Shown here: positions 6,522-11,152 of the stretch, piece after piece
How the letters are laid out: each line of letters opens with the position of its first letter
How positions within the stretch are numbered: the first letter of the stretch is position 1
NCBI GenBank assembly: GCA_024687845.1
Contig: JAILEL010000081.1
Location: 1 to 20,374 of the forward strand
Direction: 5' to 3'
Source: Eubacterium sp.
GTDB lineage: Bacteria > Bacillota_A > Clostridia > Lachnospirales > Lachnospiraceae
Length of the DNA: 20,374 nucleotides
Notes under the pieces: generated by a model
Told to the model about the DNA's origin: nothing
Seen by the model: the letters and a program-made list of their open reading frames with translations, nothing else
Database searches by the model: none
Program-made: the position numbers and the translations under genes

Positions 6522-6887
6522 ATGAATATGGAAACACCAAAGGTATTTGATAGTGAATACAGATTTTGTCTAATTCTATGGGAGCATGAACCAATTAAAA
6601 GTACTGAGCTTGCGAAGCTTTGTGAGTCGGAGCTTGGCTGGAAGAAGGCGACTACTTATACTGTGATTAAAAGGCTGACTGAGCGAAATGTAATCAAGAG
6701 TGAAAATGCCGTTATCACGTCTCTTGTGACAAAATCAGAGGTTCAGACTGCTGAGATTGATGACATGGTTGATAGAACATTTGCGGGAAGCATTCCTGAT
6801 TTTCTTGCGGCATTTGCTAACAGCAGGAAGCTGTCGAAGAAGGAGATTAGTGACATACAGAAGCTTATAGACGAATATAAGGAATAA
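6522..6887 (+). CDS. BlaI/MecI/CopY family transcriptional repressor
   Basis: A 121-residue protein of the usual BlaI length. The N-terminal winged helix is recognisable: EYRFCLILWEHEPIKSTELA, then LGWKKATTYTVIKRLTERN as recognition helix, then the wing and a C-terminal dimerisation region with SIPDFLAAFANSRKLSKKEI. Family members repress their own operon and are inactivated when the partner M56 protein triggers their proteolysis. The partner starts 4 bp after the stop codon. Two starts are possible: ATG at 6522 (3 nt after a GAGG site) or ATG at 6528 (9 nt after it), the latter giving METPKVF. No beta-lactamase gene is nearby, so the regulated target is either the M56 gene itself or elsewhere. 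Confidence 0.92.
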   Translation: MNMETPKVFDSEYRFCLILWEHEPIKSTELAKLCESELGWKKATTYTVIKRLTERNVIKSENAVITSLVTKSEVQTAEIDDMVDRTFAGSIPDFLAAFANSRKLSKKEISDIQKLIDEYKE

Positions 6888-6891
6888 AATT

Positions 6892-8877
6892 ATGGTAAAT
6901 GTATTTTTAAAACTTCTGAATATGAGCTTTTCGGCCAGCCTTCTGATTCTGGCATGCATTTTTATAAGGTATACATTTAAAGGTATGCCTAAACACATGA
7001 GATGCTTTCTCTGGCTTTTGGTTCTGGTAAGACTTGCCTGTCCTTTCTATGTGGAGAGTCCACTTAGTGTTCTTCCAAGGAAGAATTTTATAAGTGTGTC
7101 TGAGACGGATAGCGATATAAGTAATTCTCAGATTGATGCTTCTGATAATAGTATTAATATGAGTAGCAACCTTGATCTGAAGGATTCTGAAAGCCTTAAG
7201 ATGGACCAAAATGTTAAGACTATAGCTAATGAGATGGGTAGTTCTGATATCAGGAATAGTGAGAAAAGTCAGCAGCTAGATACGCAGTCGAATTCATTCT
7301 TTTACATCAGACAGTCTAAACTTGTTGGGCTTCTATCTGTAATATGGCTTCTTGGCGTTTTAGCAACGATCGGTTATGGAATCATATCATACATCAGACT
7401 CCTTAAATGTGTGGATGATGCAGTTATTTTAAGGGATAACATCTTTCAATCAGATAGAATAGTGACACCTTTTGTGCTGGGCTTTTTCAGGACAAGGATT
7501 TACATTCCGTACAATCTGACCCCAACAGAGACTTATTTTGTTCTGAGTCATGAGCGTGCACACATTTCCAGAAAGGATCATCTGCTGAAACCGATTGCTT
7601 TTGCAGTGTCCTGCATTTATTGGTTTAATCCGCTTGTCTGGATAGGCTATATGCTTCTTTGCAGAGACATAGAGCTTGCCTGTGATGAAAAGGCAGTTAA
7701 TCTGATTGGATATAATAAGAAGAAAGAGTATTCACAATCAATCCTGAACCTCAGTGTGCCGTCTAGATACATTTCGGCATGTCCTGTGGCATTTGGTGAA
7801 ACAGGTGTAAAGGAAAGGGTAAGAAGTGTACTTAATATGAAGAAAAGTAAGAAGATAGTAATTGTTTCAGGAGCAGTTCTGGTAGCACTTACAGGAATAG
7901 GATTCCTCACGTATCCTAAGGTTGAGAAACTAGATGTTGAAAAAAATAAAGCTATAGAAGAGTTTGCAGCAGCGGAAGCTGAAGCCACAGCAAAGGCCGA
8001 AGTAGTATCTGAAGCAGAAGAAGTAGCAGCAGCTGAAGCTAAGGCAGCAGAAGAAGCGAAAGCTGAAGCTGGATCCGAAGTAACTACAGAAACAGTCTCT
8101 AAAAGCGAACTTTCTAATGATGAGTCGTCTGATAATGACGTAAAGAAAGAAAAAGTGTTAACAAGTGTTGTTACGGTTGATCCTGAAGCGGAAGAAAAAG
8201 TTGTATTTAGTCTGGATGGGGAGACTGTAAAATTATTAGATGAGGATGGAAATGAAATAACTTGTATAGCTATTGAGGAAAATGGTGACTCTTCTACAGT
8301 TTATTCAAATGCAGAATCTTCAACAACATCTTTTGACGAGTATGGTTCGGAGATAGATGACATTGAAGTATCATTACCCGAAACAGAAAATTCTATTGGA
8401 AAAAAGACTATAGAGGTAATAAAAGCTGTTTCGGAAGATGGTGATTCTCAGTCGAAGTATGTGTATGTAATATCAGATCCAGATAAAGCAAATGGCGAAG
8501 GTATTCTGAATAATATGACAATAGTTCGTCCATTTAGTGATGATCATAAAGGTGTTGATCTGGGTGGAAAAGAGGGCGATCCAATATATCTTTCTTATAG
8601 TGGCAAAGTAAGTAATGTGGGCTATGACGATGAGAGAGGTAACTTCATAGAGATAGAGAATGCAGATGGTTGTACGATTATATATAATCATCTGAAGGAT
8701 AAGCCAGGATATAAGGTTGGGGATTCAGTTATGCCAGGTGATAAAATAGGAGAAGTAGGAAACACAGGAAATAGTACAGGACCACATCTTCATATCTCGG
8801 TACTTTCGAAAGATGGAGAATATATAGATCCTCAAAACTATACACCTTATGAATATATTCTCGAAGAAACTGACTGA
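6892..8877 (+). CDS. BlaR1-like M56 membrane metallopeptidase fused to a C-terminal M23 (LytM) domain
   Basis: A 661-residue membrane protein. Residues 1-345 form the M56/BlaR1 module: hydrophobic segments near 5-25, 36-55, 146-168, 232-255 and 322-342, the zinc motif HERAH (220-224) and a third-ligand candidate E261 in ELACDE. An Ala/Glu-rich linker follows (about 345-410), then an extracytoplasmic region ending in an M23 domain with HKGVD (H552, D556), H600 and HLHIS (H632, H634), all the expected zinc ligands. In BlaR1/MecR1 the sensor is a penicillin-binding domain; here that place is taken by a peptidoglycan-hydrolase-type domain, suggesting wall sensing or remodelling coupled to BlaI cleavage (inferred). 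M23/M56 fusions are known in Firmicutes. The start follows an AAGGAA site 7 nt upstream, and the gene is co-transcribed with the repressor. Confidence 0.92.
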   Translation: MVNVFLKLLNMSFSASLLILACIFIRYTFKGMPKHMRCFLWLLVLVRLACPFYVESPLSVLPRKNFISVSETDSDISNSQIDASDNSINMSSNLDLKDSESLKMDQNVKTIANEMGSSDIRNSEKSQQLDTQSNSFFYIRQSKLVGLLSVIWLLGVLATIGYGIISYIRLLKCVDDAVILRDNIFQSDRIVTPFVLGFFRTRIYIPYNLTPTETYFVLSHERAHISRKDHLLKPIAFAVSCIYWFNPLVWIGYMLLCRDIELACDEKAVNLIGYNKKKEYSQSILNLSVPSRYISACPVAFGETGVKERVRSVLNMKKSKKIVIVSGAVLVALTGIGFLTYPKVEKLDVEKNKAIEEFAAAEAEATAKAEVVSEAEEVAAAEAKAAEEAKAEAGSEVTTETVSKSELSNDESSDNDVKKEKVLTSVVTVDPEAEEKVVFSLDGETVKLLDEDGNEITCIAIEENGDSSTVYSNAESSTTSFDEYGSEIDDIEVSLPETENSIGKKTIEVIKAVSEDGDSQSKYVYVISDPDKANGEGILNNMTIVRPFSDDHKGVDLGGKEGDPIYLSYSGKVSNVGYDDERGNFIEIENADGCTIIYNHLKDKPGYKVGDSVMPGDKIGEVGNTGNSTGPHLHISVLSKDGEYIDPQNYTPYEYILEETD

Positions 8878-8885
8878 TGAAAAAA

Positions 8886-8924
8886 CGGTTATTCGTTCCA
8901 CGTGGAATGGATAACCGGTTTTTT
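8886..8924 (+). terminator. Terminator after the M56/M23 gene
   Basis: CGGTTAT (8886-8892) pairs with ATAACCG (8911-8917), continuing through two wobbles into the self-complementary TTCCACGTGGAA, with six T after it (8919-8924). A-tracts to the left could let it work on the other strand too. It begins 8 bp after the first stop codon. The apex resembles a parS site (see findings). Confidence 0.88.
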
Positions 8925-8954
8925 ACTATTGAAAGATAGCATTAATATGATAGA

Positions 8955-9091
8955 ATAGGTAACGATTTAACTTCGTTAAATCGTTGCTCCGAGCAAAGCG
9001 AGGATACGCTGTGCGAAGCACAGCCAAGACTTACGAAGTAAGGATTGCATATCTGCAAAGCAGATATGGTACGATAGGTAACGATTTAACT
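8955..9091. repeat. Array of five short hairpins with C-RAA-G triloops, bounded by an 18-bp direct repeat
   Basis: Consecutive stem-loops: 8961-8985 (11-bp stem, loop TTC, which is GAA on the other strand); 8988-9004 (TCCGAGC-AAA-GCGAGGA, with two G-A oppositions in the stem); 9008-9024 (7-bp stem, loop GAA); 9030-9042 (5-bp stem, loop GAA); 9048-9068 (9-bp stem, loop AAA). Spacers are 2-5 nt. ATAGGTAACGATTTAACT occurs at 8955-8972 and again at 9074-9091; the second copy lacks the right half of the first hairpin. Stems differ in sequence while loops and closing pairs are alike. No coding potential is seen. Function unknown. Confidence 0.85.
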
Positions 9092-9160
9092 ATTTGTGTT
9101 ATCATAAAATATGTGTAACTGAACAATTACAAATTATTATAGAAATTCTGGAGTGTTTAT

Positions 9161-11152
9161 ATGAACGTAGAAGAATCGTACGATATAGTAGTTGTTGGAG
9201 CGGGACATGCTGGATGTGAGGCTTCACTTGCTGCTGCAAGAATGGGCTTTGAGACTATCATGTTTACTGTCAGTATGGACAGTGTTGCTCTCATGCCTTG
9301 TAATCCTAATATTGGTGGAAGTTCCAAGGGACACCTTGTCAGAGAAATAGATGCACTTGGCGGAGAGATGGGCAAGAACATAGATAAAACCTTCATTCAG
9401 TCCAAGATGCTAAATGTATCTAAGGGACCTGCTGTTCATTCTCTTCGCGCTCAGGCTGATAAGGGTGAGTATACGAAGCAGATGAGAATGACACTTCAGG
9501 CTGAACCAAAGCTTACTCTGAGACAGGGCGAGGTTGCAGAGCTACTGTTTGAGGAAGTAGGAGATAGTGAGAATTCAGAAACATCAGTGACCGATGATAC
9601 AAGTAAAGATAGAAAAAGAACTGTCAGAATTACTGGTGTGAAAACATTTTCTGGTGCAGTTTACCATGCTAAAGCGGTTATCCTATGCACAGGTGTTTAT
9701 CTAAAGGCTATGTGTATCTATGGTGACACGATTACTTATACCGGCCCGAATGGTCTTATGGCTGCAAATCATCTCTCACAGTCAATGATTGATGCAGGAA
9801 TTCCTCTAAGACGTTTCAAGACAGGTACACCACCGAGACTTGATGGAAATACTATTGATTATTCTGTTATGGCTGAGCAGAAGGGTGACGAGCATATTCA
9901 GCCATTTTCATTTACCAATAAAGAAGAGGATATTATGAGAGATCAGATATCCTGCTGGCTTACATATACAAGTGAGGAAACTCACGAGATTATCCGAGAG
10001 AATATTGACCGTTCTCCGCTTTTTTCAGGTGTTATAAAGGGAACCGGGCCGAGATACTGCCCGTCTATAGAAGATAAAGTAATGAAATTTCCTGATAAGA
10101 ACAGGCACCAGCTCTTTGTTGAACCTGAGGGCGAGTTCACTTCGGAAATGTACCTTGATGGGCTGTCCTCTTCTCTTCCTGAAGATGTGCAGTACAGAAT
10201 GGTGCATTCGATTCCAGGGCTTGAAAATGCTAAAATCGTGAGACCAGCATATGCAATCGAATATGACTGTATCTCAGCTACAGACCTTAAGCCATCACTT
10301 GAGTTTAAAAATGTACATGGACTTTTTTCAGCTGGTCAGCTGAATGGAAGTAGTGGTTATGAGGAAGCGGGAGCTCAGGGACTTATGGCTGGAATAAATG
10401 CAGCTAGACTTCTTCAGGGTAAGGAACCTGTTGTTTTATCGAGATCTGACGGCTATATTGGCGTGCTGATTGATGACCTTGTGACTAAGGAAACCAAGGA
10501 ACCTTATAGAATGATGACCAGCCGTGCTGAATACAGGCTTCTTCTGAGACAGGATAATGCTGATCTCAGACTTACAGATATAGGCCATGAGATTGGACTT
10601 ATAGATGATAAGAGATATGCCGCTTTTTGTGAGAAGCGACGCCTTATCGAGTCAGAGATTTCACGCCTTAAGGAGACTATGATAGGTGCAGGAAGAGAGA
10701 CTCAGGAATTCCTGGCAAAGTACGAAAGTGCTCCAATCCATACTGCGGTTTCACTGGCTGATATCATTAGAAGACCGGAATTCAGTTATGAAAAGATTAC
10801 AGAGATAGATAATGAAAGACCGGTAGAACTTAGACTTTCCGAAGTATCAGAAAGCGAATTACATAGTGATTTACCAGACCCAAGTTTCATTAGAGAGGTT
10901 ATCGAGCAGATTAACATTTCAATAAAATATGAAGGCTATATAGACAGACAGAAAAAGCAGGTGGAACATTTCCTTAGAATGGAAGAGAAGAAGATTCCGG
11001 AAGACATCGATTATTCAAAGGTCAAGAATCTTAGAATAGAAGCGAGACAGAAGCTGGAAGCTGTGAGACCGCGTTCCATAGGCCAGGCATCAAGAATCTC
11101 GGGCGTGTCCCCAGCCGATGTAACTATGATAATGCTGTACTTGAATATATAG
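9161..11152 (+). CDS. mnmG: tRNA uridine-5-carboxymethylaminomethyl modification enzyme MnmG (GidA)
   Basis: A FAD-dependent partner of MnmE; the complex modifies the wobble uridine of tRNAs reading NNA/NNG codons. The 663-residue protein shows the N-terminal dinucleotide fold [13 protein letters not shown] (10-22), MPCNPNIGG with the conserved Cys47, a second FAD/NADH region with [20 protein letters not shown] with the second conserved Cys, and the C-terminal helical MnmE-binding region ([19 protein letters not shown]). It is about 30 residues longer than usual, largely from a Ser/Glu/Asp-rich insertion around residues 127-150. A GGAG site lies 7 nt before the ATG. The hairpin array lies directly upstream, so any mnmG promoter must be inside or just after it. 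Confidence 0.97.

Follow-up and report, generated by a model that had tools for sequence, protein, structure and literature searches.

A genus-restricted intergenic repeat of covarying mini-hairpins upstream of mnmG in a Eubacterium genome

The array of five mini-hairpins that precedes mnmG in the window, a stretch of 20,374 nucleotides from Eubacterium sp. (contig JAILEL010000081.1), is almost certainly a member of a repeat family dispersed between genes. The array is a multi-copy, genus-wide repeat, which the initial annotation, made from the sequence alone, had overlooked. The family unit extends from hairpin H1 to hairpin H5 and a GGYAC tail, is non-coding and is restricted to one genus of gut bacteria, where most of the species sampled carry it. 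Our preferred reading, held with modest confidence, is that of a BOX- or MITE-like non-autonomous repeat of DNA mini-hairpins, located here where the mnmG leader is predicted to start, whose hairpins would act, and would be partly repaired, as single-stranded DNA. A literature search returned no earlier account of this Lachnospiraceae repeat family, in which structure is conserved and sequence is not, and the letters of the H2 core likewise gave nothing relevant. If the stems are kept by template switching at the DNA level, selection on RNA is not needed for strong covariation, which is usually taken to prove a structured RNA, and the family would provide a natural multi-copy system in which to test that warning. 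The family would also place stable leaders ahead of genes such as mnmG.

The five hairpins span 108 nt of the + strand (8961–9068). H1 (8961–8985) has 11 bp and a loop that reads TTC on the + strand, equivalent to GAA on the − strand, an orientation opposite to that of most listed relatives as judged by eye; the other four of the five, H2 to H5, carry C-RAA-G loops on the + strand. H2 (8988–9004; TCC.GA.GC.AAA.GC.GA.GGA), the most conserved hairpin of the array, has tandem G.A mismatches that separate its three outer base pairs from the two inner ones. H3 (9008–9024) has 7 bp and a C-GAA-G loop and contains GCGAAGC, H4 (9025–9047; CAAG.A.CTTAC.GAA.GTAAG.G.ATTG) combines 5 + 4 bp with an A.G mismatch and a C-GAA-G loop, and H5 (9048–9068) has 9 bp and a C-AAA-G loop. 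Re-examination agreed with the initial annotation on five hairpins in 108 nt, on GAA and AAA loops with the first inverted and on two occurrences of GCAAAGC. All five mini-hairpins are present, H2 not being a plain one, and the spacers, given as 2–5 nt, measure 0–3 nt, with H3–H4 and H4–H5 abutting if H4 is taken to include its outer pairs. The array is flanked by 28-nt direct repeats that are 89% identical to each other. The left repeat, ATATGATAGAATAGGTAACGATTTAACT (8945–8972, + strand), overlaps the −10 box of a predicted promoter and the left arm of H1, and the right repeat (9064–9091, + strand) takes in GGTAC, the 3' motif of the family, and the beginning of another unit. By eye, a direct repeat resembling GCAACAAAAGYGCAACAAA lies just 5' of arrays in six loci from different genomes (L292, L293, L294, L289, L291 and L129).

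A chance origin of the array was ruled out by dinucleotide shuffles, a comparison that had been suggested at the outset. Four triloop hairpins with such loops and stems of at least 5 were observed in 171 nt, against at most one per shuffle in 5000 shuffles. In addition, fold z-scores were −6.5 (DNA, + strand), −5.9 (DNA, − strand) and −7.3 (RNA, + strand), and none of 200 shuffles folded as well.

Membership of a family became apparent in close relatives, in five genomes of which TGCGAAGCA outnumbers its own backward reading 1.8- to 13-fold. Around clusters of this word in UBA4381 (G004), the hairpins of the window recur in the order of the window with partly different stems. Two covariance models were built, R1 from seven copies and R2 from 111 R1 hits. 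R1 matched 8 of the 20 genomes behind the mnmG loci, 3 of 200 genomes of the family Lachnospiraceae and 50 of the 61 genus genomes. R2 matched 52 of these 61, in which a genome holds as many as 32 copies, together with 2 of 392 genomes drawn from the whole order, the reference genome UBA4381 among the two; the larger searches used stricter filters, under which weak copies may be lost. Array-bearing members of the genus include Eubacterium ruminantium (G009) and Lachnospiraceae bacterium C6A11 (G005). The window copy (8987–9081, + strand) scores 101.9 bits with R1 and 99.5 bits with R2, and these scores are not independent, the window being in both training sets; as a training member it shows the family feature, H2 to H5 in order with covarying stems. 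Collections of phages and plasmids gave no match, and among viral contigs the flanking-repeat pattern matched once, apparently within a coding stretch, and a second pattern not at all. A further multi-hairpin repeat with C-GAA-G loops was seen in UBA4381 (L133, L137, L142 and L143), with weak R2 matches of 27–40 bits.

Constant loops on varied, compensating stems had been proposed from the single copy, and strong covariation in relatives bears this out in both the seven-copy and the 93-copy alignments. The MAFFT alignment of seven copies is 94.7% paired, with two-sided changes in ten pairs. Among 93 distinct copies, in an alignment fitted to the covariance model, 96.3% of 2729 pair cells hold standard pairs, both sides have changed in 653 cells, two-sided changes occur in 30 of 30 pairs and the covariation score is 0.672 vs 0.189 in shuffled controls; the fitted alignments A4 and A5 lean towards the model structure. 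When the register is slid, pairing drops to 31–40%. The H2 core pattern is present in 64 of the 93 distinct copies, and GGCAC or GGTAC occurs within the last 25 nt in 72. Loop, flank and context counts were based on 90 of the 111 R1 hits. A C-G pair closes 238 of the 281 triloops, which include 194 GNA, 49 ANA and 6 TNC. A strong strand bias is also evident (RNR 301 vs YNY 12, of 341). Loops inverted on the same 5-nt arms make up four loop pairs (3 of 80 arms), and a hybrid hairpin in L136, recognised by eye, joins an H1 arm to an H5 arm.

Several of these features could be read as purely mutational, that is, as palindromes that perpetuate themselves through template switching during replication and spread by duplication or chance, with neither recognition nor function. 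Template switching by a polymerase yields arm homogenisation and inversion of spacers or loops according to PMC8604942, and it homogenises arms and inverts spacers in RNA genes according to PMC8794818; such products, the tandem array units found in several genomes and the L136 hybrid all suit this account. Hairpin order, H2 core and GGYAC tail nevertheless recur genus-wide, and the loop bias of 301 to 12 persists despite inversions that do occur. Furthermore, in a 400-kb sample of G005, C-GAA-G or C-AAA-G in either orientation was found in only 15 of 541 triloop hairpins with stems of at least 5. A purely mutational origin is accordingly considered unlikely. Genome-wide, C-RAA-G hairpins showed no more than a weak excess (G005 and G002, 0.8- to 1.8-fold), so that the pattern belongs to the arrays and not to a general bias.

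Strong covariation is also what would be expected if the array were transcribed as a structured 5' leader of the downstream mRNA (here that of mnmG), serving to stabilise or regulate it and with stems under selection for RNA pairing, an alternative to which we give some weight, well short of an even chance. The kinds of mismatch tolerated in the stems bear on this question. In array stems G-U accounts for 1.5% and A-C for 0.6% of cells (39 vs 17 over 2636 cells, with three rows left out of A5 and the outermost H2 pair omitted), compared with 5.7% and 0.7% at fixed stem positions of the tRNAs in those loci (60 vs 7 over 1060 cells); the lower G-U share of the arrays (p about 2e-11), both sets having been found by programs that favour G-U, counts against selection on RNA pairing. 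G-U still exceeds A-C in the arrays (39 to 17, p 0.005), and RNA-level constraint may for that reason be at work as well. One-sided changes between nearest relatives comprise 17 G-U and 10 A-C in arrays vs 20 and 1 in tRNAs (p 0.013), again at odds with an RNA leader; in a second alignment the array counts are 15 and 5, a difference from the tRNAs that is not significant (p 0.09). The ratio of two-sided to one-sided changes was dropped as a discriminator between DNA and RNA, since the tRNA control (142 two-sided changes, 20 one-sided G-U) looks alike. Hairpin loops in RNA are usually GNRA or UNCG tetraloops, unlike the GNA triloops that predominate in the arrays. Taken together, the G-U deficit, which hints that pairing is kept partly at the DNA level, the loop inversions, the L136 hybrid and the stability of GNA hairpins lead us to favour maintenance as DNA, though it is not proved.

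In the window, the array is situated between a terminator-like hairpin, 3' of an M56/M23 peptidase gene, and mnmG (gidA; 9161–11152, + strand). Directly 5' of the array, a predicted promoter on the + strand (8929–8956) comprises the −35 element TTGAAA (8929–8934), a 16-nt spacer and the extended −10 element TG-A-TAGAAT (8948–8956); it matches the consensus at 10 of 12 positions with TG ahead of the −10 box, and a scan of 451 bases gave four promoter-like sites vs 1.9 expected from shuffles. This position favours the RNA leader. An earlier suggestion of structured RNA ahead of mnmG is plausible in this respect, but the array is not confined to mnmG, and G-U lies below the level of tRNA stems. 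A scan with MnmG provided 80 related loci, one of them (L007) with only 48 nt of upstream sequence, and with an E-value cut-off of 0.01 none carries an array at mnmG, so the array is not a conserved mnmG leader. The C6A11 locus (L006) has two array copies elsewhere and none at mnmG, and L001 shows a weak array match (E 0.14) in the mnmE–mnmG spacer. The window was likewise without any Rfam family at gathering score, which further weakens the case for an RNA leader, and the earlier statement that no known family fits the whole array holds so far. Below threshold (8850–9200, E up to 5), the best match was a microRNA model, accompanied by a weak snRNA match; the microRNA match is sub-threshold, lies on the terminator hairpin (8880–8923) and is taken as spurious. 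That hairpin, just upstream of the array, is an inverted repeat of 44 nt that contains A and T tracts and is terminator-like on the + strand. Between mnmE and mnmG, the window also encodes (6522–8877) a BlaI-like repressor (Penicillinase_R) followed by a 661-aa M56 (BlaR1) and M23 protein.

Orientation was assessed across the genus after 11 more hits or tandem groups from G221 had been added, giving 101 rows and, after homologous loci were clustered, 88 loci. On simple ORF calls, 51 loci lie between codirectional genes, 38 in sense and 13 in antisense orientation (p 0.0006), and the remainder are divergent (14), convergent (6), inside a called ORF (7) or with one neighbour missing (10). Of 84 copies with enough flank, 75 have a definable H1, and in 14 of these 75 an extended −10 box lies 2–6 nt ahead of it, vs 24 of 3627 random positions. 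The copies with a −10 box represent 12 independent loci, among them the window copy (−35 TTGAAA, −10 TAGAAT), and all 12 are sense to the next gene vs 45 of 68 others (p 0.015). Both sense biases are in line with an RNA leader. Against it stand the 13 independent codirectional copies that are antisense and the 8 independent loci that adjoin tRNA genes, where some arrays are antisense too. No replication-strand bias was detected in G221 (14 of 22, p 0.29). Array copies adjoin tRNA genes in, for example, L209, L220, L225 and L149, and by eye the upstream flank in L212 resembles the end of a 23S rRNA gene. A more specific proposal, to which we assign a low probability, is a shape-coded single-stranded DNA element, in which GNA mini-hairpins in fixed order on one strand are read by some factor whatever the sequence of their stems and would enter melted promoter bubbles in sense orientation; this would explain the starts 2–6 nt past an extended −10 box and the box-like TGGYAC ends.

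On the preferred reading, a non-autonomous repeat of DNA mini-hairpins, the strand bearing GNA loops would, once single-stranded, fold into very stable mini-hairpins; GNA and GNNA mini-hairpins of DNA are exceptionally stable according to PMC4686876. Switching of a polymerase between the arms as templates would then re-make perfect stems and occasionally flip a loop. The repeat would spread as a non-autonomous element, either on MITEs or through some other factor, and the copy at the predicted mnmG transcript start would give rise to a structured 5' leader, perhaps as a mere side effect. Several points weigh against this reading: G-U remains in excess of A-C, loop inversions are few, the sense excess of 38 to 13 is also expected from a function in the transcript, MITE ends are seen in G240 alone, and the one transposase family examined, Y1_Tnp, yielded no mobilising enzyme.

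Recent dispersal of the array inside a MITE was shown in G240. Herein, an element of about 309 bp (308–309) carries the array and is present in five copies at unrelated sites (L240, L242, L244, L295 and L296), four of them about 99% identical and the fifth 95% identical and truncated. Its terminal inverted repeats are imperfect, with 14 of 24 positions matching, and three of the four complete copies are bordered by exact AT-rich target duplications of 7, 8 and 7 bp. This composite is a MITE carrying the array, and such ends are seen in G240 alone and not in the window copy. In four other genomes (G246, G267, G265 and G218), homology between copies is limited to about 70–240 nt around the array. 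Movement of REP- or REPIN-like elements in single-stranded form, driven by a transposase of the Y1/HUH type (RAYT or IS200/IS605), would agree with the strand-specific hairpins and with the Y1_Tnp domain encoded by 36 of 61 genus genomes. IS200/IS605 elements are not known for target duplications of 7–8 bp, such as those of the G240 composite. Moreover, Y1_Tnp is present in 28 of 50 array genomes and in 8 of 11 array-free ones by R1 calls (p 0.5), and the copy-rich genomes G003, G005, G222 and G265 are without a Y1 match. Movement of this kind is thus regarded as very unlikely, and the single-strand-specific transposase first suggested is unsupported for Y1_Tnp, the one candidate family examined.

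Among known systems, the BOX elements found in Streptococcus pneumoniae (PMC3049150), with their modules boxA, boxB and boxC, are similarly modular, intergenic and multi-copy, with stem-loops and a range of few related species. The modules of the array are mini-hairpins whose loops are C-GNA-G and whose stems covary freely. MITEs share with the G240 composite its imperfect terminal repeats, its 7–8 bp duplications and its near-identical dispersed copies, whereas ends are known from that composite alone and homology in the other four genomes is confined to the surroundings of the array. REP/BIME sequences with RAYT (PMC2817692) resemble the arrays in dispersed palindromes, compensatory changes and mosaic arrangement, and in REP elements the palindrome is preceded by a GT(A/G)G head; the array, unlike them, sets several different hairpins in a fixed order instead of one palindrome, and Y1 genes are unassociated with it. 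The loop and closing pair are the same as in d(GCGAAGC) mini-hairpins (PMC4686876), and GCGAAGC itself is present in H3, although these mini-hairpins are a chemical motif from oligonucleotide studies and not a genomic repeat family. Other nested hairpin clusters with GCGAAGC loops, whose membership of R1 or R2 is not clear, were seen in the mnmE–mnmG spacers of L003 (3130–3440), L001 (1380–1560) and L002 (5760–5980), and the outer stem TTACTATTCATAG is common to L001 and L002.
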